The position numbers and the translations under genes are program-made. A stretch of DNA of 43,224 nt from Flavobacteriales bacterium. GTDB taxonomy: Bacteria > Bacteroidota > Bacteroidia > Flavobacteriales_F > PHOS-HE28. Below are positions 9,809 to 43,224 of the stretch, one piece after another (positions within the stretch are counted from its first letter, which is position 1; every line of letters begins with the position of its first letter). The notes under the pieces are model-generated. The model searched no databases. It saw only the letters and a list, made by a program, of their open reading frames with translations, and was not told the origin of the DNA. The stretch spans positions 1-43,224 of the forward strand of contig JABWBQ010000024.1 of assembly GCA_013360395.1 (NCBI GenBank), read 5' to 3'.

Positions 9809-11146
9809 ATGATGAAACCGCTACTCTCGCTGTCCTCTGTCCTGGTCGCTGGCGCCGTTCTCGGACAGGCGCGACTGGTGATCAACAACAACGCCTACGT
9901 GGTCTTCGATCCGAACACGCCGGCGATCCAGCCGACGTACCTGGTCGTGGACAACCCGAACGCCAACGCGATCACCGTGGCGGGCACCGGGGGCAACATC
10001 GTCTCCGAGCGGGAGCGCAACTTCATCCGCTGGTCCATCGGGACAAGCACGGGCGCCTACACCATTCCGTTCACGAACCCCGGCAACGTGAAGATCCCCC
10101 TGACCTATACGGTGCTGGGGGCGGGCAGCGCCGGGGGTTCGGTGCTGTTCTCCACCTACAACTACGACGGCACCGATGCGGTGATCGCCCCGGCGAACCG
10201 TTGGAACAATGCGTTGTACCAGCCGTCGGACGTGACGCACATGAACAACTGGGACACGGGCACCAACCTCACTCCCGGCGCCACCAACGAATCGGGCCAC
10301 GTGGTGGACCGGTTCTGGATCATCGACACCCAGGCTTCGGGCTTTGCCTACGCGAACAAGCCGGATGCCTCCATGGTGTTCCGCTATGACGCGGCGGAGA
10401 TCACTGCAGGCAACACCATCGTGGCCGCCAACCAGCTGATGGCCCAGCGCTTCAACTTCGGCACCAACAAATGGGGCGATTACCTGCCGACCTGTATCTG
10501 GTCCAACGCCCCGTACTCGGTGGCCGTTCCCGCCGCTGGCGTGATCGCGGATGCGGATTTCTTCCGTTCGTGGACCCTGTCGGACATCGGCAACCCGCTG
10601 CCGGTGGAGCTGGTGAACTTCGGCGGTGCGTGCAAGGACGGCCGGGTGAAGCTCACCTGGACCACCGCCACCGAGAACAACAACGACTATTTCCTGGTGG
10701 AGAAGAGCCTGGACAACATCGCCTGGGCCACCATCGGGCAGGTGGACGGGGTGGGCAACAGCGTCACCGCGAACACCTACTCCTTCGAGGACCCCGAGCC
10801 GACCACGATGGCCTACTACCGGCTGGTCCAGACGGATATGGACCGGAGCACCACCGAGAGCAATGTGGTGGCCGCCGGTTGCGGCATGGGCACGGGTACC
10901 GAGATCGTGAACGCCTTCGATGCGGGTGAGGTGCTGGTGGTCACCGTGAGCAGCACGCTGGACAACACCTACGACCTGACCTTGGTGGACGCCCAAGGCA
11001 AGGTGATGGCCGTACAGCCCCGTGTGGCCATCGCGAACGGCATCACCCAGGTGGTGGTCCCCACCGGCACCATCGCCACGGGCATCTATGTGGTGCAATT
11101 GCAGAACGACGGTGGCCGGATGAGCCGCAGGGTGCACCTGCAATAA
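9809..11146 (+). CDS. secreted protein with type IX secretion C-terminal sorting domain
   Basis: The 445-residue protein begins with a signal peptide (two tandem ATGs, then hydrophobic leader, cleavage near VLGQA). The first 270 residues are beta-rich, with many Asn, Thr and Gly, and belong to no family I recognise. A linker LPVELVNFGGACKDGRVKLTWTTATE then begins a fibronectin-like domain of the kind that precedes type IX sorting tails in Bacteroidota. The last 75 residues have the shape of a type A sorting domain: LTLVDAQGKVM...GIYVVQLQNDGGRMSRRVHLQ. It should be exported by Sec, moved across the outer membrane by the T9SS, and processed by a PorU-type sortase; a PorU2-like gene is about 1.7 kb downstream on the other strand. 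The stop is 25 bases before a strong hairpin terminator. Confidence 0.8.
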   Translation: MMKPLLSLSSVLVAGAVLGQARLVINNNAYVVFDPNTPAIQPTYLVVDNPNANAITVAGTGGNIVSERERNFIRWSIGTSTGAYTIPFTNPGNVKIPLTYTVLGAGSAGGSVLFSTYNYDGTDAVIAPANRWNNALYQPSDVTHMNNWDTGTNLTPGATNESGHVVDRFWIIDTQASGFAYANKPDASMVFRYDAAEITAGNTIVAANQLMAQRFNFGTNKWGDYLPTCIWSNAPYSVAVPAAGVIADADFFRSWTLSDIGNPLPVELVNFGGACKDGRVKLTWTTATENNNDYFLVEKSLDNIAWATIGQVDGVGNSVTANTYSFEDPEPTTMAYYRLVQTDMDRSTTESNVVAAGCGMGTGTEIVNAFDAGEVLVVTVSSTLDNTYDLTLVDAQGKVMAVQPRVAIANGITQVVVPTGTIATGIYVVQLQNDGGRMSRRVHLQ

Positions 11147-32448: not shown

Positions 32449-33099
32449 ATGCTGCGTTTCGAGGTCTTCGTGTGCAACCCCTTCCAGGAGAACACCTGGC
32501 TGGTCCATGACGGCCGGGAGGCGCTGTTGGTGGACCCGGGGTGCTGGAACACGGCGGAGGAACGTCGGCTGGAGGCCTATGTAACGCAGCATGACCTGCG
32601 CATCGTGCGTTGCCTCAATACGCACGGCCACATCGACCACGTGCTGGGCAACGCCTGGGCCCACCGGCGTTTCGGGGTGCTGCCGGAGATCCATCGGGAC
32701 GACCTGGAGCTGCTGCGGCGTGCGCCGGCCGTGGGTCAACTGTACGGCGTGCCCTGCGAGGCCTCGCCCGGGCCGGGCGGCTGGCTGGAGGACGGGGACA
32801 CCGTGCAGCTGAACGACCACCGGTTCGAGGTGCTCCATGTGCCCGGCCACAGTCCCGGCCACGTGGCCCTGTATTGCCGCGAAGCCGGTCGGCTGGTGGG
32901 TGGCGATGTGCTGTTCCAGGGCAGCATCGGCCGCACCGATCTGCCGGGCGGCGACATGGACCAACTGCTGCACAGCATCCGCACCCGGCTGCTGGTGCTG
33001 GACGATGCCGTGGTGGTGCACTGCGGGCACGGCCCCGACACCACCATCGGCGCCGAGCGCAGGAGCAACCCTTTCCTGCGGCCCTCGGTCGTGCGCTGA
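32449..33099 (+). CDS. metallo-beta-lactamase-fold hydrolase (glyoxalase II-like)
   Basis: The 216-residue cytoplasmic protein has the di-metal motif THGHIDHV (HxHxDH), the later GHSPGHVALY histidine, the DVLFQGSIGRTDLPGGD segment with the bridging aspartate, and VVHCGHGPDTTIGAER with the last histidine. This set matches the small YcbL/glyoxalase-II-like hydrolases (thioester or related substrates) rather than true beta-lactamases. The ATG at 32449 was chosen because MLRFEVFVCNPFQENTWLV is the family N-terminus; the upstream frame to 32383 lies in the promoter gap. It is divergent from the propeller gene and converges on the barrel-like gene that ends 19 bases downstream. Confidence 0.9.
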   Translation: MLRFEVFVCNPFQENTWLVHDGREALLVDPGCWNTAEERRLEAYVTQHDLRIVRCLNTHGHIDHVLGNAWAHRRFGVLPEIHRDDLELLRRAPAVGQLYGVPCEASPGPGGWLEDGDTVQLNDHRFEVLHVPGHSPGHVALYCREAGRLVGGDVLFQGSIGRTDLPGGDMDQLLHSIRTRLLVLDDAVVVHCGHGPDTTIGAERRSNPFLRPSVVR

Positions 33100-33118
33100 C
33101 CCCGGCACGCAACCCGGC

Positions 33119-33982
33119 CTACGGGTGATAGCCGTCCTGCTTGTACACCTTCTTCTTTCCTTCCAAGGCGTTGGGCTTGATCGCCGGCGGACAGGCAAAG
33201 CCCTTCGGGTAGCGCAGGAACAGGAAGCGGATGCTGAGGATCAGCGGGCGATGGCGGCTATTGAACCATTGCAGCTGCCCGAAGCCCTTGTCGGCCGGGA
33301 CCACGCTCACCACGGGCGTCTCCAGGGTGGGGATGATCAACAGGCGACCGCGGGTCCGGAACCCGTAGCCCACCTTCACATGCGCCTGCCCGATGAACGA
33401 GGGTGGCAGCTCCTGGTCGGCCAGCACCACCGGGTCGCCCACGTAGCTGCGCGCACTGCCCACGTCCAGGTCCGCGTTCACCCCCAGGCTCAGCTGCACG
33501 AACTGCCGGTCGGTGGTCTGCACGAACTTGTTGGCGTTCACATGCGCGCTCAGGTACTGGTCGCGGAAGGTGCCCGAGCCGGGGAGCACCACGGACGAGT
33601 CGGTCTCGTTGGGTCCGTACCGCAGCACGCCGATGTGGTCCTGGCGGCCGTTGAGGCCCTTGTACGCCAGGCCGAAGTCCCAATAGTCCAGCACCACCGG
33701 GTCGCGCGTGGCGTGGAACCAGCCCACCTCCACGTACGGGCCGAAGCGGCCGTTGGGGTCGAAGGTGGCCGTGTACGTGGTGTCGGCGTTGCGGAACAGT
33801 TCACGCTCCTGGTCGCCGAAGCGGGCCAGGGTGTAGGTGGCCCCCAGGCCGAAGTAGAGCCCGCCACGGCGCATCTTGCCGTCGGTGGGGATGATCTCCG
33901 GGCGCTTGCGCTCGAACAGCCGCTGGGCGGTGAGCTGTGCGGGCAGCGAGAGCAGCAGCAGGCCGGCGAGCAGGGATCGCAT
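33119..33982 (-). CDS. exported outer-membrane barrel-like protein, unknown function
   Basis: The 287-residue protein has a signal peptide (MRSLLAGLLLLSLPAQLTAQ). What follows looks like alternating barrel strands: GGLYFGLGATYTLARFG, GPYVEVGWFHA, FVQLSLGVNADL, AHVKVGYGFRTRGRLLIIPTLE, here separated by turns. The C-terminus (FLRYPKGFACPPAIKPN...GKKKVYKQDGYHP) is Lys-rich and Pro-rich instead of ending in an aromatic strand. I recognise no named family. An ATG at 34003 would add seven residues. It is downstream of kmo with an 83-base gap, perhaps in the same transcript. Confidence 0.6.
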   Translation of the reverse strand: MRSLLAGLLLLSLPAQLTAQRLFERKRPEIIPTDGKMRRGGLYFGLGATYTLARFGDQERELFRNADTTYTATFDPNGRFGPYVEVGWFHATRDPVVLDYWDFGLAYKGLNGRQDHIGVLRYGPNETDSSVVLPGSGTFRDQYLSAHVNANKFVQTTDRQFVQLSLGVNADLDVGSARSYVGDPVVLADQELPPSFIGQAHVKVGYGFRTRGRLLIIPTLETPVVSVVPADKGFGQLQWFNSRHRPLILSIRFLFLRYPKGFACPPAIKPNALEGKKKVYKQDGYHP

Positions 33983-34065
33983 GGAGCGAAGGTGGGGGGG
34001 CATGCTGCATGAACGACGGGGAGGCCCGTCAACGTATGAACGATCGCCCGTGGGCGGAGCGGATC

Positions 34066-35418
34066 TCACAACAACCCCAGCACCTTCTCTTCCACGGCAC
34101 GCTGCACCGTGGGGTCGGTGTCCCACCGGTCCACCACCCCGTCCATGGCCAGCACCTCCTCCATGATCCGGTCGTGCCGCAACCCTTCGCGCCAGGCGTC
34201 GGCATAGGGGATGTCGCTGAACTTCACCTGGCTGTACAGGGGCAGCCATCGGCCGGGGTGCCGGGCCTGGATGCTGCCCTCGATCCTCCTGCGCAGCAGG
34301 AAGCGCGGATCGGCCACGAGGTCGCGCATCTCCACGAAGTTGCGCAGGCTCAGGTCGGCGATGGCGTCGCCGTTGGGTTTGCGCGCGGTGGCGTAGCGGT
34401 GCAGCACCTCGTGCCAGTTGTCGTCGCCGTGCTCGTTCAGCAGGTCGTTCAGCACCTTGCAGTCCTCGTAACCGGCGTTCATGCCTTCGCCATAGAAGGG
34501 AACGATGGCGTGGGCCGCATCGCCGACCAACGCCACGCGGCCGTTCACCTGCCACGGGTCGCAGCGGATGATGACCAGGCTGCTCTGCGGGTTGCGCAGG
34601 TATTGTTCCACCACATCGGGCACCAGGGGCTCCACATCGGGGAACTGCTCGGCGAAGAAGCGCCGCACCGCCTCCTCCCCCTGCACGGTGTCGAAGCCGG
34701 GGCTTTGTGCGGTTGCGTGGTGCGGCATGAACAGCGTGCCGGTGAAGCCTCCGTCCAGGTTGGCCAGGCCCATGAGCATGAACCAGCGCCGCGGCCAGAT
34801 GTGCAGGCAGTGCGGGTCCATCTTCGGCGTGCCGTCGGGGTTGGCGGGGAAGGCCACCTCCTTGTAGTCGTGTTCGATGTACTCCTGGCCGTAGGTGAAC
34901 CGGCCGAGCATCATCCTGCTGCGCACCGCGCTGAAGGCACCGTCGGCCCCGAAGACCACATCGGCCTTCACCTGCACCTTGTCGCCGTTGTGGTCGAGGT
35001 CGCAGGTGGCGTTCTCCAGGTCCACGTCGAGGCAGCGATGGTCGAAGAAGAGCTTCACGTTGGGCAGCTTCTCCGCTTCGTTCAACAGGCGACGGTTCAG
35101 CTCGCCGCGCGAGACCGACCAGATGGCCCGGTTGTCGATGCTGTACGGCACGCGGTTCAGGTGGCCCTCCCGGTCGTGCGTCAGGCGGGCATGCACGGGC
35201 ACGGTGATGGCCTTCACGGCCTGCTCCACCCCGGCGGCGCGCAGGGCGGTCCACCCGCGATGGCTTACCACGAGGTTGATGCTGCGGCCCGCGTACACAT
35301 CGGTGCGGCGCGGGTCGGGGCGGCGTTCGTACACGCGCACGGCATGGCCGCGCCTGGCCAGGAAGATGGCGAGCAGCGATCCCACAAGGCCGCCCCCAAT
35401 GATGGTGATGTTGCTCAT
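34066..35418 (-). CDS. kmo: kynurenine 3-monooxygenase
   Basis: The 450-residue FAD monooxygenase hydroxylates L-kynurenine to 3-hydroxykynurenine with NADPH and O2. The dinucleotide-binding start is ITIIGGGLVGSLLAIFLARRG (two parts: IIGGGLVGSLL, then AIFLARRG), with DVYAGRSINLVVSHRGW characteristic of Kmo, FGADGAFSAVRSRM as the DG motif, and RVALVGDAAHAIVPFYGEGMNAGYED as the GD motif. The C-terminal part carries FPDVEPL and the LRNFVEMRD segment. The ATG at 35418 fits the family; a longer frame upstream is not supported. kynU, the next enzyme of the pathway, is 117 bases upstream on the same strand. A near -7 element CACCTTTG (minus, 35433-35440) precedes the start. Confidence 0.94.
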   Translation of the reverse strand: MSNITIIGGGLVGSLLAIFLARRGHAVRVYERRPDPRRTDVYAGRSINLVVSHRGWTALRAAGVEQAVKAITVPVHARLTHDREGHLNRVPYSIDNRAIWSVSRGELNRRLLNEAEKLPNVKLFFDHRCLDVDLENATCDLDHNGDKVQVKADVVFGADGAFSAVRSRMMLGRFTYGQEYIEHDYKEVAFPANPDGTPKMDPHCLHIWPRRWFMLMGLANLDGGFTGTLFMPHHATAQSPGFDTVQGEEAVRRFFAEQFPDVEPLVPDVVEQYLRNPQSSLVIIRCDPWQVNGRVALVGDAAHAIVPFYGEGMNAGYEDCKVLNDLLNEHGDDNWHEVLHRYATARKPNGDAIADLSLRNFVEMRDLVADPRFLLRRRIEGSIQARHPGRWLPLYSQVKFSDIPYADAWREGLRHDRIMEEVLAMDGVVDRWDTDPTVQRAVEEKVLGLL

Positions 35419-35535
35419 TCGTGGTGCAGGATCAAAGGTGAATGGAAGTTGATGAATGGCGAAGTGTCGAACGCAGGCAGGCCAACGGTGCATCCATTCG
35501 CCCTCCACCCTTGACCATGGGGACCCACCCGCCGA

Positions 35536-36807
35536 TCACCCTTCCACACATTCAGCAAGTGCCTCCCCGAACCTGTACACATCCTCGAAGCTGTTGTACA
35601 TGGGCACGGGGGCCATGCGCAGCACGTCGGGTTCGCGCCAGTCGCAGAACACGCCACGCGCGGTGAGGCGGTCGAAGATGCCGCGCCCATCGCCGTTCAC
35701 CAGGATGGACAGCTGCGCGCCGCTCTGTGCGGGGTCCTGCGGGGTGATGATGTTGAACATTCCCCCATGCGTGTCCGAGATGCCTTCGATGATCCAACGC
35801 AGGTAACCCGTGAGGTGGATGCTCTTGGCCCGCAGGCGTTCCATGCCCGCGCGGTCGAACTGCTCCAGCGCCACACGATGCACCGCCATGGGGAGCACGG
35901 GGGCGTTGCTCACCTGCCAGGCTTCCGCCGTGGGCATGGGTTTGAAGGTGCGCTCCATCCTGAAGCGTTCCCGCTTGTCGTGCCCCCACCATCCGGCGAA
36001 CCTTGGAAGCTCCGTGCCCAGGTGCCGTTGATGCACGAAAGCCCCGGCCACACCGCCCGGACCGCTGTTCAAATACTTGTAGCTGCACCAGCAGGCGAAG
36101 TCGGGACCATCGTCGTGCAGTTTCAGGTGCAGATTGCCCGCGCCGTGCGCCAGATCGAAACCGGCGAACGCACCCACCTGGTGCGCCGCGTCGGTGATGC
36201 CCTTGAGGTCGAAGGCCTGTCCGGTGAGGAAGTTCACACCGCCGAAACAGACCAGCGCCAGCGCATCGCCCAGTTCGTTGATCTTCGCGATGATATCCTC
36301 CGGCCGCAACGTGTGTTCGCCGGGGCGCGGCCGCACCTCCATCAGGCACTGGTCCGGGTCCAGCCCGTGGAACCTGATCTGCGAAGCCAGGGCGTAGGTG
36401 TCGCTGGGGAACGGGCGCTGCTCGGTGAGGATCTTCACACGCCTGCCCTTCGGGCGATAGAACGACACCAAAAGGAAGTGCAGGTTGCTGGTGAGCTGGT
36501 TCATCACCACCACCTCCTCCTGCAACGCGCCCACGAGCCGGGCGGTGCTGGCGGTGAGTTCCTCGTGGTAGCTGTACCACGGATGCTTCGCGCGGAAATG
36601 GCCCTCCACGCCGAGTCCCGCCCAGTCGTCCAGTTCCTGCTTCAGTGCAGCGGCGGCGGCCTTGGGTTGCAGGCCGAGCGAGTTGCCGGTGAAATAGATG
36701 GCGGCACGGCCATCGTGTTCCGGGAAGAGGAACTCCGTGCGGAAGGGGCGCAGCGGATCGGCCGCGTCTTGGGCTTGGGCGTAGGCCAGGCTGTTCTCGA
36801 AGGTCAT
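35536..36807 (-). CDS. kynU: kynureninase
   Basis: The 423-residue PLP enzyme cleaves kynurenine or 3-hydroxykynurenine to (3-hydroxy)anthranilate and alanine. Landmarks are YFTGNSLGLQPK, WYSYHEELTASTARLVGA, VVMNQLTSNLHFLL, GFDLAHGAGN and the PLP lysine in CWCSYKYLNSGPGG. WWGHDKRERFRMER and the C-terminal DWREPDVLRMAPVPMYNSFEDVYRF complete the active site. With Kmo it converts kynurenine to 3-hydroxyanthranilate, a route to quinolinate and NAD in Bacteroidota; the remaining genes (tdo, haaO) are not in the window. An exact TACTTTTG -7 element ends nine bases before the ATG, so kynU probably has its own start site although a UbiA-type gene fragment precedes it. Confidence 0.95.
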   Translation of the reverse strand: MTFENSLAYAQAQDAADPLRPFRTEFLFPEHDGRAAIYFTGNSLGLQPKAAAAALKQELDDWAGLGVEGHFRAKHPWYSYHEELTASTARLVGALQEEVVVMNQLTSNLHFLLVSFYRPKGRRVKILTEQRPFPSDTYALASQIRFHGLDPDQCLMEVRPRPGEHTLRPEDIIAKINELGDALALVCFGGVNFLTGQAFDLKGITDAAHQVGAFAGFDLAHGAGNLHLKLHDDGPDFACWCSYKYLNSGPGGVAGAFVHQRHLGTELPRFAGWWGHDKRERFRMERTFKPMPTAEAWQVSNAPVLPMAVHRVALEQFDRAGMERLRAKSIHLTGYLRWIIEGISDTHGGMFNIITPQDPAQSGAQLSILVNGDGRGIFDRLTARGVFCDWREPDVLRMAPVPMYNSFEDVYRFGEALAECVEG

Positions 36808-36848: not shown

Positions 36849-37847
36849 TCAGGTCGCCGCGGCCAGGGCCACCACCAGCGGGGGCAGCAGCAGGGCGCCG
36901 TCCAGCAGCAGCCCGAAGTGGAGGGCGCTGCGCGCCGGTGTGCTTCGGGCCACCAGCACGGCGATCGGAAGGTAGGCCAGGGCCGCCACGGCAAGGCCCG
37001 TCGATCCCGGGGCCGCCGGGTGCCCGGCCGACCAGGCGGGTGTGCCGAACGCCAGGGCGGCGAGCGCTGCCGCCGGGCAGAGCATGAGGGCGGCCGCCAG
37101 GGTGCGCGTGCCCCGCGATCCCAGCAGGTGCGGGAGGGTCAGCACGGTGCCGCGGTCGATGTCGCGATCGCGCAGGTCGAACACCATGGCGATGGCCATG
37201 AAGAAGCACATCTGCATGGCGAACAGGCCGGCGGTGCCCTGCGGAGGTCGCTCGTTCACCCCCGGCGTTGCGGGCAGGCCCACGGTGACCCAGGCCCAGC
37301 ACGCCGCGATCAGGAAGACCTTGAGCAGCGGCACGCGCCGCAGGCCGAGCAGCCCGGGCAGGATGCCGCAGGCCGACAACACGGCGAAATTGGCCTTCCT
37401 GACCCAACTCTCCGCTTCCGCCGGGTCCCAGGTCATGCCGAGGCCTAGGTGTTCGAGCACGCTCGCCGCCGTCAGGCCGCGCTTGGGCGGGACGCAGCGG
37501 TCGGTCACGAGCAGCACGGGGCAGCCCGCTCCCGCCGCGATCACGCTGCCCGCGACCTCCAGCGGCGCATGCGTCTCGAACCCTTCGTGCGGCGGCATGA
37601 CGCACACGAGGTCCTCGATGTCCTTGCACGGGATGTTGGCGTGCGCGCGGGCGGCCTCGGCGAAGGCGATCACCTCCTCCACCGTGACCCCCTTCCAGCG
37701 CAGCGCGATCAGGAACGCGCCGATCTGGATCTCGCTCTGCCCCCCCGCGATCAGGAGCTCGAACGCCCGGTAGGCCTCCTCGCGCGTCAGGTTGCGGCCG
37801 TCGCGCTTGGCCGAACCGAGCAAGCGCACGAGGTCGCGGAGGATCAT
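36849..37847 (-). CDS. chimeric frame: TrpD2-like N-terminal fragment joined to UbiA-type prenyltransferase C-terminal fragment
   Basis: The 332-residue frame is two unrelated half-proteins. Residues 1 to about 155 are the N-terminal part of an anthranilate-phosphoribosyltransferase-like (TrpD2/YbiB type) protein: the helical start (TREEAYRAFELLIAGGQSEI), IGAFLIALRWKGVTVEE and an AGSVIAAGAGCPVLL phosphoribosyl-binding-fold segment. The C-terminal half of that family is missing. Residues about 173-332 are the membrane helices of a UbiA-type protein (LLKVFLIAACWAWVTV, then FDLRDRDIDRG with the second Asp-rich motif); its N-terminal helices and first Asp-rich motif are missing. Neither half can be functional as drawn. 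The junction lies between about 37335 and 37445. Because gene content on either side also differs by phylum, I treat this as an assembly join, not a natural fusion. Confidence 0.8.
   Translation of the reverse strand: MILRDLVRLLGSAKRDGRNLTREEAYRAFELLIAGGQSEIQIGAFLIALRWKGVTVEEVIAFAEAARAHANIPCKDIEDLVCVMPPHEGFETHAPLEVAGSVIAAGAGCPVLLVTDRCVPPKRGLTAASVLEHLGLGMTWDPAEAESWVRKANFAVLSACGILPGLLGLRRVPLLKVFLIAACWAWVTVGLPATPGVNERPPQGTAGLFAMQMCFFMAIAMVFDLRDRDIDRGTVLTLPHLLGSRGTRTLAAALMLCPAAALAALAFGTPAWSAGHPAAPGSTGLAVAALAYLPIAVLVARSTPARSALHFGLLLDGALLLPPLVVALAAAT
37335..37445. other. probable assembly junction between two genomes
   Basis: This interval brackets the switch from UbiA-like coding sequence (left, Bacteroidota) to TrpD2-like coding sequence (right). 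The peptide across it, ILPGLLGLRRVPLL, could belong partly to either family, so a short GC-rich shared stretch may have caused the join. The exact base cannot be fixed by eye. Confidence 0.65.
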
Positions 37848-38030
37848 CGGGGTTCCGGGGCGAAATGGCCGCGGTCTGGGCGGCGTTGCGACGGCCGTAA
37901 GTCGGGCGCCGGTCGCGGGTTACCCTAGCAGCGCCGGCCGGAGTCGGCAATGCGCCCGGCAGGGGTCGGTCGAGGGCTTGGGGAGCGCCTTTCGGGACAC
38001 GTTAGCCCACGGGGTGGAAAGCGATGTAAA

Positions 38031-38062
38031 AGCCCGCGCCACAAGGACTTGTGACGCGGGCT
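38031..38062 (-). terminator. intrinsic terminator of the amidohydrolase operon
   Basis: AGCCCGCG/CGCGGGCT and, after one mismatch, CACAA/TTGTG form a long stem around GGAC. On the minus strand it is followed by TTTTAC. It starts 31 bases after the stop at 38094. The remaining gap (37848-38030) shows no gene. Confidence 0.88.
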
Positions 38063-38093
38063 CGATGTGGATAACCGGTGCAGGCGGCGGGGA

Positions 38094-39509
38094 TCAGCCG
38101 TCCTTCGGCGGATCCTTCGGCGGGTCGTCGGGCTTGGTCTCGTCACCCTCCTTGGGAGCCTCCTCGGGCTTGGCTTCGGCGCCTTCCTTCGGCTCCTCCG
38201 CCTCGCCCTTGTCCTTGCGCTCCTCCGGGGCGAGCTGCGTCGACGGGCGCGGCCGGATGTGGGCGTAGAAGAGCTCCTGCGACTTGTCGTAGACGAGCTT
38301 GCCCTCAACCACCGTGTACTGGACCAGCGACTGGTAGTGCATGACGTCGCCGTCGAGCACGATCAGGTCGCAGTCCTTGCCCTTCTCGAGGCTGCCGACG
38401 CGGTGCGACACGCCGAGCAGGCGCGCCGGGACGATCGTGATCGACTCGAGCGCCGCCTGATCGGTCAGGCCGCCGCGCACCGCGAAGCCCGCCTCGATCG
38501 GCAGGTGCAGGATGTCGCGGCCGGCGATCCCGCCGAGGTCGACGCCCGTGGTCGACGGGATCACGCACACCTGCACGCCCGAGCGGTGCAGGATCGCGGC
38601 GTTCTCGATGCTCGAGCCGCCGTCGCGCACGAGCTGCTCTTCCTTGTCGCGGCGGTCGCGCGGCGTGATGACGGCGTAGGCGCCGGCGCGGCCGAGCTCG
38701 TCCGCCACCGTCCAGCCCTCGATGCAGCCGTCGATCACCGGACGGAAGCCGAAGCGCTGGGCGAGGCGCGCGATCTCGAGCAGGTCCTCGCGGTTGGAGG
38801 CGTTGAAGCGCGCCAGCACGCGGCCTTCGAGGATCGAGCGCACGGTCGAGTCGACGCCGCTCGCCGCGGGCTCCTTCAGGTCCTTGTTGTCGCGCTTCTT
38901 CTCCTCCCACTCGCGGTACTCGCGCAGGTAGCGCGCCGCGCGCTCGAAGCGCTCGTTCATCTCGCGCTTGCCCTGCGGGTTGGAGTTGGTGAACGACAAG
39001 GTCGCGAGGTAGCGCTCGCGCAGCACGACGCCCTTGATCTCGCGCCGCTTGAGCTTGAGCGCCACGTTGGACTGGCCGGCGGTCGTGATGCCGCTCGCCA
39101 GCGCCAGCGTCATGCGCTGGTTGTACGGGTCGACCGAGTCGGCGAAGTCGCCACCGGTGTTGCCGAACAGGCCCGCCGAGTTGATCGCGACGAGGCCGGG
39201 GTAGACCCGCAGGCCCGCGGCGTCGAGCGTCTTGGCCTCCGTCGGAACCTCGACGTCGTGACCGATCGACTCGATCACGCCGTTCTTGGAGAGCACCGTC
39301 GCGCCGCGCAGGACCGCGCCCGTGCCGGTGTAGACGTCGCCGTTGAGCACGGCGAACCACTCGTCCTTCTTCTCTTCCTTCTTCTTCTCCTCCTCCTTCT
39401 TCTCGCCCTCCTGGGCGGACGAAGGCGAGCCGAAGGACGGCAGGGCGAAGCCCATGCAGGCGCTGAACGCGAGGACGCTCAGCGAACGACGATCGATCCA
39501 GAACTTCAT
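38094..39509 (-). CDS. exported amidohydrolase-superfamily protein lacking metal ligands (probable pseudoenzyme)
   Basis: The 471-residue protein has a signal peptide with a twin-arginine-like start (DRRSLSVLAF), cut near SAQE. A Lys/Glu-rich linker (about 34-50) and an imidazolonepropionase-like fold (about 52-425) follow. The superfamily frame is clear: ends with ESITIVPARLLGVSHRVGSLEKGKDCDLIVLDGD. But the catalytic residues are gone. The HxH after PGL is replaced (VYPGLVAINSAG), the histidine of the family SHG/DHG motif is glycine (VIDGCIEGW), and the TDAP aspartate region reads VCVIPSTTG. The C-terminal 60 residues are a Pro/Glu/Lys/Asp-rich tail. The start overlaps the previous stop by 4 bases (ATGA), with a purine-rich GGAGAGGTGAAGGA just before it. 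Last gene of the operon. Confidence 0.8.
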   Translation of the reverse strand: MKFWIDRRSLSVLAFSACMGFALPSFGSPSSAQEGEKKEEEKKKEEKKDEWFAVLNGDVYTGTGAVLRGATVLSKNGVIESIGHDVEVPTEAKTLDAAGLRVYPGLVAINSAGLFGNTGGDFADSVDPYNQRMTLALASGITTAGQSNVALKLKRREIKGVVLRERYLATLSFTNSNPQGKREMNERFERAARYLREYREWEEKKRDNKDLKEPAASGVDSTVRSILEGRVLARFNASNREDLLEIARLAQRFGFRPVIDGCIEGWTVADELGRAGAYAVITPRDRRDKEEQLVRDGGSSIENAAILHRSGVQVCVIPSTTGVDLGGIAGRDILHLPIEAGFAVRGGLTDQAALESITIVPARLLGVSHRVGSLEKGKDCDLIVLDGDVMHYQSLVQYTVVEGKLVYDKSQELFYAHIRPRPSTQLAPEERKDKGEAEEPKEGAEAKPEEAPKEGDETKPDDPPKDPPKDG

Positions 39510-40762
39510 TCCTTCACCTCTCCGAACACGAACTCGCCGTCGAGCATCACGGCCTCCACGTTGGTCGTCGGTTCCAGCGGGTCACCCGACAGGAACAGCA
39601 GGTTGGCGGTCTTGCCCTTCTCGAGGCTGCCGAGCTGCTTGTCGAGCCCGAGCACCGCCGCGGGCTCGAGCGTGAGCCCGCGCAGCGCCGCATCGCGCGC
39701 GAGGCCCGCGCCGACGATCTCGCCGACGTGGCGCCGCCACGCGACGTGGTCCTGGATGGTGTCGTTGCGCGGCTTGAAGGCGATCTTCGCGCCCGCCGTC
39801 GCGAACTCCATCGCGAGGTTGCGCTGGCGCATCGTGCCGGGCACGAGCGTGATCTGCGGCTCCATCACCAGGCGCACGCCGCGCTTGCCGATCTCCTCGG
39901 TGACCTCGTAGATGTCGATCTCGCGCGTCATGACCACGCGCAGCGCGTAGTCGAACTTGCGCTCGCCGATCGCGTCGAGCCAGTGCGCCCAGTCGGCCGC
40001 CTGCGTGATGCTCACGAGCATCCCGAGCTCGCCATCGCGCACCTGCACGAACGGCTTGACCTTCGGATCGGCCTCCGGCGGGACGAAGGTCTTCTTGTCG
40101 TCCTTCTTCTCCTCCGCCTTGGCCTCGCCTTCCTTCTTCTCCTCTTCCTTCTTGTCGGAGCCCTTGGACTTGTTGTCCTTCTCCCACTTCTCCTTGGCCT
40201 TCTTGACCTTGTCGTCGTACTCGTCGACCTTGGTCCACGCGTCGCGCACGAGCTTCTTCGAGGCCGAGTTGGCGCGGAAGTACACCTTCAGGTACGCGTC
40301 CTCGTCGACGACCATGTCGCCGATCGCCTTGCCCTTGGGGCGCAGCGCGGCCGCGTGACCGGGAACACCGGTGCCCGGCGGGTAGAGGCCGAGCGTGGTG
40401 ACGCCGGCTTCGAGCGCTTCCTTGTAGTCGGGGTGCCGCGGATCGATCTCCGGAGTCGGCGAGGCCTCGGGGTTGAACTCCTGACCCGCGCGGCTCTCGA
40501 CGCCAAGGCGCGTGTAGCAGCTCACGAGGCCGGGCATCACGACCCATTCGGGACGCTCGATCACGGGGATGCCGCGCGCGACGGGCAGGTCCGCGCCGAT
40601 CTCCACGATCTTGCCATTGTCGACGAGGATCACGGCGTGGTCGATCGGGCCGTGGGACACGGTCTCGGCCCGGCCGACCTTGATGGCGACGAGGCCGCCC
40701 GAGGGATCGACCGGCCCGGTGAGCACCGGCGCCAGCGCGAGGAGGGTGGTGAGGATGGTCAT
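39506..40762 (-). CDS. exported amidohydrolase-superfamily protein lacking metal ligands (probable pseudoenzyme)
   Basis: The 418-residue protein has a short N-terminal signal-like segment (MTILTTLLALAPVLTGP) and an imidazolonepropionase-like fold. The family ending is present (LTLEPAAVLGLDKQLGSLEKGKTANLLFLSGDPLEP). The metal site is not: the position of HxH reads VMPGLVSCYTRLG, the position of the second histidine reads VVMTREIDIYEV, and the NTDAP aspartate region reads IAFKPRNDT. A highly charged insert of about 45 residues, almost all Lys, Glu, Asp and Ala (about 185-235), replaces a normal loop. It overlaps the next gene by 4 bases and follows the active-type gene at 40793 after a 30-base gap. 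Pairing with the neighbouring paralogue is possible but unproven. Confidence 0.8.
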   Translation of the reverse strand: MTILTTLLALAPVLTGPVDPSGGLVAIKVGRAETVSHGPIDHAVILVDNGKIVEIGADLPVARGIPVIERPEWVVMPGLVSCYTRLGVESRAGQEFNPEASPTPEIDPRHPDYKEALEAGVTTLGLYPPGTGVPGHAAALRPKGKAIGDMVVDEDAYLKVYFRANSASKKLVRDAWTKVDEYDDKVKKAKEKWEKDNKSKGSDKKEEEKKEGEAKAEEKKDDKKTFVPPEADPKVKPFVQVRDGELGMLVSITQAADWAHWLDAIGERKFDYALRVVMTREIDIYEVTEEIGKRGVRLVMEPQITLVPGTMRQRNLAMEFATAGAKIAFKPRNDTIQDHVAWRRHVGEIVGAGLARDAALRGLTLEPAAVLGLDKQLGSLEKGKTANLLFLSGDPLEPTTNVEAVMLDGEFVFGEVKE

Positions 40763-40792
40763 GACGTTCTCTTCTTCTGTTCGTCTGCGCGA

Positions 40793-42049
40793 CTAGAACC
40801 TCTGGCGGTCCCGCACGCGGTCGTACTCGAGCTTGCCTTCGATCCAGACCGACTCGACGGACGCCCGCGGATCGAGCGGGTCGCCGTGCCACAGGACGAT
40901 GTCCGCGTGGCGGCCGGGCCGCAGGCTGCCCACCAAGGCGTCGATGCCGAACGACTTGGCGGGGTTGACCGTGCAGGCCTTGAGCATCAGGTAGGAATCC
41001 GCGCCGTAGCGCGCGCCCATCGTGCTCTGCAGGAAGAGCTCTTCCTGCGGCATCACGGGGGCGTCCGTGTTGACGGTGATCAGGTTCGCGCCGGCCTTCG
41101 CGTAGCGCTCGGGCGTGCCGACCCACTCGCCTTCGGACTGGCGCCAGTCGAACGTGCGCGGGCCGAGGTTGACCGGAATGCCGATGCGCGCGGCGTAGGG
41201 CGCGACCTTCCAGCCGTCGAAGCAGCCGTGGCTGAGCACCGGCTTCGTGGCGGGGTAGCGCTCGCCCCACATCTCGATCGTCGTGTGCACGGCGTCGCTG
41301 CCGGCGGTGTGGATGAGCACCGGCAGCTCGCCCTTGACGACCTTTTGGAGGTTGGCGAGCGACTTGTCGTCGCGGCCGGCCGCGTTGGCGGCCTCGGCGC
41401 GCTGCAACGCGTCCTCGATCGTCCACGCCATGCCCGTGCGCGTCGCGCCGAGGTCGCCGCGGCGCTCGGGGTTGTAAGCCTGCGCGACCTTCATGCCACC
41501 GGGGTCGGCGAGCACGCAGCCTTCGTAGCTCCCGCTGCAGCGTGTCTTGTAGAGCACGCCGAAGCCGGAGTTGTTCGTGCCGCTGCCGGGGATGCCGAAA
41601 AGCGTCGTCACGCCCGCGGAACAGGCGCGCTGGATGTCGGGGTTGGCCGGGACGATCGTCGGCGACGTGCGGTACTCGGGGTTCATCGCGAGCACCATGT
41701 CGTTGATGTCGCCCCAGCCGCCGGTCTGGATGTGCGAGTGCAGGTCGATCAGGCCCGGCGTCGCCCACAGCGTCGGCGCCTCGACGAGCTCGTAGCCCTC
41801 GGGCAGCTCGACCACCGGCCCGGCGTAGTCGACCTTCGAGCCGCGCACGACCACGAGGCCCGGCGCGAACACGTCGTCGGCCTCGTTGAGCGTGAACACC
41901 TTGCCGCACAGGAGCGCGAAGCCCTGCTCACCCTGCGCGAGCGGCTGGATCGCGCCGAGTTCGGCGTCGCGCGGCGCTTCCTGCTTGCGCGGAGCCGCGC
42001 AGGCGCCGAGCGAAAGCCCCAACGCCACGATGGCGAGCTTGCTCACCAT
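40793..42049 (-). CDS. amidohydrolase-family lipoprotein with intact metal site
   Basis: The 418-residue protein starts with a lipoprotein signal: MVSKLAIVALGLSLGAC, lipobox LGAC, lipidated Cys at 17, so it is probably anchored facing the periplasm. The catalytic residues of the amidohydrolase superfamily are all visible: HSH in PGLIDLHSHI, a lysine in GGMKVAQAY, histidines in VLIHTAGSD and VLSHGCFDGW, and the aspartate in VNTDAPV. The ending ALVGSLRPGRHADIVLWHGDPLDP is typical of imidazolonepropionase/dihydroorotase-like hydrolases. Substrate unknown. The start at 42049 overlaps the upstream gene by seven bases. Closest relative in the window is that upstream gene (shared GDINDM, IPGSGTN, NTDAPV). 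Confidence 0.85.
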   Translation of the reverse strand: MVSKLAIVALGLSLGACAAPRKQEAPRDAELGAIQPLAQGEQGFALLCGKVFTLNEADDVFAPGLVVVRGSKVDYAGPVVELPEGYELVEAPTLWATPGLIDLHSHIQTGGWGDINDMVLAMNPEYRTSPTIVPANPDIQRACSAGVTTLFGIPGSGTNNSGFGVLYKTRCSGSYEGCVLADPGGMKVAQAYNPERRGDLGATRTGMAWTIEDALQRAEAANAAGRDDKSLANLQKVVKGELPVLIHTAGSDAVHTTIEMWGERYPATKPVLSHGCFDGWKVAPYAARIGIPVNLGPRTFDWRQSEGEWVGTPERYAKAGANLITVNTDAPVMPQEELFLQSTMGARYGADSYLMLKACTVNPAKSFGIDALVGSLRPGRHADIVLWHGDPLDPRASVESVWIEGKLEYDRVRDRQRF

Positions 42050-43224
42050 CGCCGCACCGCCTTCGCGTGGTCGTAGACCTCGCGGCCTTCGATGTAGACG
42101 CGCTGCACCCACGAGCGCGGGTCGGCCGGATCGCCGGTGATGACCGTGATGTCGGCGTCCTTGCCACGTTCGAGGCTGCCGACACGCTCGTCGATGCCCG
42201 CGACGACGGCGGGAACGATCGTGAGGCCGCGCACCGCCTGCATGTCGCTCGGATCGAAGCCGTACTTGATCGAGACGCCCGCCTGCAGCGGCAATTCTTC
42301 GGCCGGCACGACCGGTGCGTCCGTGTTGAAGCCGATCTTCGAGAGCCCGCGGCGCTGGAACTCGCCGGCGCAGGAGAAGATCGCGCCGTCGGTGTAGTGG
42401 CGGCCTTCGGGCGTGTCGACCTCGCGCGGGCCGCAGATCGCAGCGACGCCCAAGCGCTCGGCCTCCGGCGTCGCGAGGAACCCGCCCCACTCGCCGTGGT
42501 CGATGAACACGTCGAGCCCGAACTCCTGCTTGAGGATGCGGATCGTCGCGTGCACCAGCTGGTACATCTGCGTGTGCGTCGAGATCTGCGCCTCGCCCTT
42601 CGAGAGCGCGCGGAAGGTCTCGTACTGCGGATCGACGTGCGGCCGCGGGCCCGCGCCGCGCTCGAAGGCCTCCCAGCGCCGCGCATAGCCGAGTCCACGC
42701 CGCACGCTGGTGCGGATGTGGAAGTTCATCATCGAGCGGCCCATGCCGTAGGCCCAGCGCGTCGGGTTGTCGCCCTGCGCCACCTTCATCGAGCCCGGGT
42801 CGCGCAGGCGCGAGGCCTCGAACGTGTCGAGGCCGGTCTTCATCAGGATCCCTTGCCCGCCGATGTTCGTGCCGGAGCCGGGGATGAACAGGATCGTCGT
42901 CACGCCCGCGGAGAGCGCGCGCAACAGGTTCGGCGTCTGCGGCACGACGGCCACGCTCACGCGCAGGCCTTCGTTGGTCTGGTAGACCATGTCGTTGATG
43001 TCGCCCGTGCCGCCGATGTGGCTGTGCAGGTCGATCATGCCCGGCATGAGCCACGCGTCGCCGAGGTCGACGAGCTCGTAGCCTTCCGGCGGTTGCGCGT
43101 CCGCGCGCGCGGCGACACGCTCGATCTTGCCGTCGCGCACGAGCACGAGCACGTCGTCGACGACCTGCTCACCATCCCAGGACGCGACCAGCGCCTTGGC
43201 GGCCGCGAGCGCGAGGCCCGGGCC
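42043..43224 (-). CDS. amidohydrolase-family protein with intact metal site (5' end outside the window)
   Basis: At least 393 residues; the frame is open to the right edge, so the true start and any signal peptide are missing. The visible N-terminus (AAAKALVASWDGEQVVDDVLVLVRDGKI) is already the beta-sandwich start of the superfamily. Metal ligands are present: HSH in PGMIDLHSHIGG, lysine in GSMKVAQGDN, histidines in ISTHTQMY and FIDHGEWGG, aspartate in FNTDAPVVP; the ending is RVGSLERGKDADITVITGDPADP. It is a clear paralogue of the lipoprotein gene that follows. A GTG at 43152 could be mistaken for the start but cuts into the conserved sandwich. First gene of the visible operon; the promoter is not in the window. 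Confidence 0.85.
   Translation of the reverse strand, partial: GPGLALAAAKALVASWDGEQVVDDVLVLVRDGKIERVAARADAQPPEGYELVDLGDAWLMPGMIDLHSHIGGTGDINDMVYQTNEGLRVSVAVVPQTPNLLRALSAGVTTILFIPGSGTNIGGQGILMKTGLDTFEASRLRDPGSMKVAQGDNPTRWAYGMGRSMMNFHIRTSVRRGLGYARRWEAFERGAGPRPHVDPQYETFRALSKGEAQISTHTQMYQLVHATIRILKQEFGLDVFIDHGEWGGFLATPEAERLGVAAICGPREVDTPEGRHYTDGAIFSCAGEFQRRGLSKIGFNTDAPVVPAEELPLQAGVSIKYGFDPSDMQAVRGLTIVPAVVAGIDERVGSLERGKDADITVITGDPADPRSWVQRVYIEGREVYDHAKAVRRW

Follow-up and report, generated by a model that had tools for sequence, protein, structure and literature searches.

A very probable assembly chimera of Bacteroidota and planctomycete DNA inside an apparent TrpD2-UbiA reading frame

The sequence analyzed here (the window, 43,224 nucleotides) is the complete contig C126 of a Flavobacteriales bin, G000 (3.68 Mb in 139 contigs). 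It passes from Bacteroidota to planctomycete DNA within positions 37331 to 37346, where the alignments to the two origins overlap by 16 bases, and the missing N-terminal half of the interrupted Bacteroidota gene lies, as synteny predicts, at one end of a different contig of the bin, C118. Judged from these comparisons, C126 is almost certainly a chimera of assembly (or, less likely, stems from a chimeric library molecule), in agreement with the original prediction, and we infer that the join was made in the computer or the library rather than in a cell. The TrpD2-UbiA fusion that the window seems to encode is not a real feature. The whole window was compared by blastn with fetched relatives; the comparison set comprised 22 same-genus genomes (38 relatives in all) and 15 planctomycete loci. 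The main references were contig C2 of the same-genus genome G008 for the Bacteroidota, and JAPLOE010000097.1 (L019) and CAIYPP010000007.1 (L031) for the planctomycetes. The features discussed below are:

1 to 37346: DNA that truly belongs to the bin; it is colinear with G008 contig C2 from 136613 to 92544
35536 to 36807, minus strand: kynureninase gene, intact and native, downstream neighbor of the UbiA-like gene in G008
36849 to 37847, minus strand: artefactual open reading frame of 332 amino acids with no internal stop, composed, according to domain matches and alignments, of a planctomycete TrpD2-like N-terminal half and a Bacteroidota UbiA-like C-terminal half
36849 to 37346, minus strand: Bacteroidota gene for the UbiA-like membrane protein, C-terminal part only, 62% identical to G008
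37331 to 37346, minus strand: join of 16 bp (sense GGCCTGCGGCGCGTGC), contained in both the Bacteroidota and the planctomycete alignments
37347 to 37847, minus strand: planctomycete gene for a TrpD2-like phosphoribosyltransferase, N-terminal part only; JAPLOE010000097.1 has the intact gene (97% protein identity)
37347 to 43224: foreign segment reaching the contig end, 94% identical to the Planctomycetota contig JAPLOE010000097.1 in one unbroken alignment
38094 to 43152, minus strand: paralogous amidohydrolase-like genes, arranged in tandem in the planctomycete segment (38094-39509, 39506-40762, about 40.8-41.9 kb, and 42043-43152)

Two parent genes and the join between them

The domain content of the 332-residue frame is that of two incomplete proteins. 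The helical domain shared by TrpD2 and TrpD (PF02885) covers residues 1 to about 165 (E 2.8e-19), and the alpha/beta domain PF00591 is matched over profile positions 24 to 87 of 253 only, its first quarter, at 16.9 bits, below the cut-off of 27 bits; no complete PF00591 domain was found in the frame by Pfam profile match. The UbiA profile (PF01040) gives a borderline match of 34.2 bits, exactly its cut-off, that reaches into the TrpD2 half. At E 0.01, no Pfam family matches the intact homologue in G008, and "UbiA" is a weak label for this membrane protein. With this reservation on the name, the description in the original prediction of half a TrpD2-like protein joined in frame to half a UbiA-type protein is accurate, including its statement that each half is deficient: most of the catalytic alpha/beta domain is absent from the TrpD2 half, and the membrane protein half is without its N-terminal part.

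Each half has an ordinary counterpart in its own phylum. The first is a normal planctomycete member of the TrpD2 or YbiB-type family (anthranilate phosphoribosyltransferase-like, PF02885 plus PF00591), except that the window copy is cut after about 165 residues, whereas the intact protein has 354 residues and both domains. Intact TrpD2-like genes occur in L019 and L031. The second corresponds to the C-terminal part of the UbiA-like gene located beside kynureninase on G008 contig C2, with kynureninase downstream, but unlike that intact gene it has its N-terminal part on another contig. The UbiA half is matched in 20 of the 22 same-genus genomes and the TrpD2 half in none of them, and the same fused frame with the same neighbors was found neither in the 38 relatives nor in the 15 planctomycete loci. 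Searches of the two sides gave best relatives in different phyla, with the switch falling inside the interval of 37.30 to 37.45 kb where a join had been predicted.

At the nucleotide level the switch is sharp. Between the window and the planctomycete relative there is full identity over the 31 bp that end at the 16-bp join, and divergence immediately beyond it. In G008, the UbiA-like relative reads GGCCTGCGACGGGTGC at the join, with a good match after it and none before. At this position both parent genes encode Gly-Leu-Arg-Arg-Val (GLRRV) in the same frame, and the chimera can therefore be read through with no stop; that the join is in frame is a matter of chance. In the blastn comparison, 37331-43224 aligned to JAPLOE010000097.1 in one piece at 94% identity, to CAIYPP010000007.1 at 81%, and to other Planctomycetota more weakly; of the 15 planctomycete loci, 11 have an alignment that starts exactly at this first position. 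At 94% identity, JAPLOE010000097.1 is a relative and not the donor itself.

The gene content on either side follows the same division. Open reading frames with strong matches hit the genus left of the join, and planctomycetes only right of it, where a different set of amidohydrolases had been proposed and where tandem amidohydrolase-like genes are indeed present. The tetranucleotide correlation also changes at the join: it is 0.60 between the right arm and the other bin contigs and 0.78 between this arm and the planctomycete contig (its homologous part being excluded), as against 0.78-0.86 and 0.43-0.57, respectively, for the left pieces. Since some genuine pieces of the bin reach only 0.40-0.55 with the rest, as poor a correlation as that of the foreign arm, composition is support only and not decisive. 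The different flavor noted in CTCGA and GTCG steps is likewise real. CTCGA occurs 9.7 times per kb right of the join versus 2.3 left of it (1.0-3.9 in 5.9-kb pieces of the bin), and GTCG 28.2 versus 11.9 times (6.3-14.5); the right-hand densities lie outside the range of the bin and resemble those of the planctomycete contig outside the matched stretch (10.9 and 27.7 per kb).

The missing part of the UbiA-like gene

When the N-terminal part of the UbiA-like protein of G008 was used as a query against the bin, the missing part of the gene was found on C118 at positions 89587-89820 (69% identity, E 2.5e-32). This match falls 5 bp short of the end of C118, which has a total length of 89825 bp, and the contig terminates with no entry into planctomycete sequence. 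Its last 17 kb are colinear with G008 contig C2 from 72318 to 92381, after which 35 bp remain unaligned; C126, read from 37346 downwards, resumes on the same reference at 92544 and continues to 136613. Because both are colinear with adjoining stretches of this reference, C118 and C126 can be placed as neighbors with about 128 bp unassembled between them, a gap that is spanned in G008 by the intact UbiA-like gene. The planctomycete side has no such complement: a search of the bin for the C-terminal half of the TrpD2-like protein gave nothing credible (best E 0.37), and the remaining DNA of the planctomycete stretch has only short matches there.

Origin of the join

The following sequence of events would account for these data. 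The Bacteroidota contig may have broken in the stretch of about 128 bp in the middle of the UbiA-like gene. On one side of the break the graph would have ended as C118. On the other, a GC-rich match of 16 bases or slightly more would have led it astray into the TrpD2-like gene with which this match is shared, in an unrelated planctomycete whose DNA was presumably part of the same sample. The GLRRV motif encoded in the same frame by both genes would then have produced a false frame free of stops. The smallest k-mer common in assembly is 21, and a directly observed shared stretch of 16 bp, being shorter, counts against an overlap made by the assembler; the real match may however be longer, since what truly follows in the Bacteroidota genome falls into the unassembled gap. 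The shortness of the match leaves some room, within the chimera reading, for a molecule formed during library preparation or amplification and then assembled, which we consider rather unlikely. GC-rich matches favor template switching, which speaks for such a molecule, but coverage has to be consistent along a foreign arm of 5.9 kb, and a rare chimeric molecule seldom achieves this. An arm of this length could nonetheless arise if one chimeric read bridged two graph tips, and the practical verdict would be the same.

A recent horizontal transfer, in which illegitimate recombination at the 16-bp match brought at least 5.9 kb of planctomycete DNA into the UbiA-like gene and left the N-terminal half at C118, is very improbable. 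Such an insertion would likewise leave both halves of the interrupted gene in one bin, and microhomology like that of the 16-bp match is compatible with illegitimate recombination. However, the segment 37347-43224 shows no mobile-element gene and reaches the contig end with no second junction seen, C118 stops 5 bp past the match free of planctomycete sequence, and the scenario further requires the absence of about 128 bp from the host gene. Both contig ends would in addition have to fall where they do by accident, and the count of zero among the 22 same-genus genomes for the TrpD2 half further argues against this scenario. A genuine fusion enzyme is practically excluded. Although the frame is open for 332 codons, the in-frame join follows from GLRRV in both parents; each family occurs in its own phylum as an intact gene apart from the other, with neighbors that are conserved, and the product would be deprived of most of the TrpD2 alpha/beta domain (only profile positions 24-87 of 253 are matched) and of the N-terminal part of the membrane protein.

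Consequences for the bin and neighboring genes

An assembly chimera of this kind makes C126 relevant as a matter of quality control only. The values listed for the bin are 99.85% completeness and 0% contamination, but the final 5.9 kb of this contig come from another phylum. The assignment of the bin to Bacteroidota is indicated by its 112 matches to TIGR04183, the C-terminal tail domain of the T9SS; one of these matches falls in the window at 10937-11134. Taken at face value, C126 would lead to a false fusion enzyme and to a false inter-phylum transfer of several amidohydrolases, and the segment 37347-43224 should be taken out of the bin. Misassembly is known to yield chimeric contigs in which fragments of different lineages are wrongly joined (GUNC, PMC8201837). 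C126 resembles these cases in its wrongly joined lineages and differs in that the point of the switch could be located exactly and the absent half of the gene could be found. The listed contamination of 0% is consistent with the lower sensitivity of marker-gene checks to non-redundant contamination (PMC8201837).

The planctomycete arm also belongs to a recurrent arrangement. In five planctomycete loci (L019, L023, L024, L025 and L031), the TrpD2-like gene lies beside a tandem array of paralogous amidohydrolase-like genes, a neighborhood kept down to about 66-70% DNA identity. At least four copies are present in the window arm, and more lie beyond the matched stretch in L019. Amidohydrolases as such were rejected as a phylum marker, distant ones (about 30% identity) being present in the genus and, on contig C51, in the bin itself.

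On the Bacteroidota side, genes for a kynurenine 3-monooxygenase-like protein and kynureninase (34066-36807) adjoin the UbiA-like gene, and the adjacency of kynureninase and the UbiA-like gene recurs in several genomes of the genus. Finally, a comparison of 33092-34119 with G008 contig C2 (95725-103547) shows about 3.4 kb of extra sequence in G008 at each of two places, at both of which the present genome has almost nothing between the aligned blocks; the rest of the 37 kb is broadly colinear.
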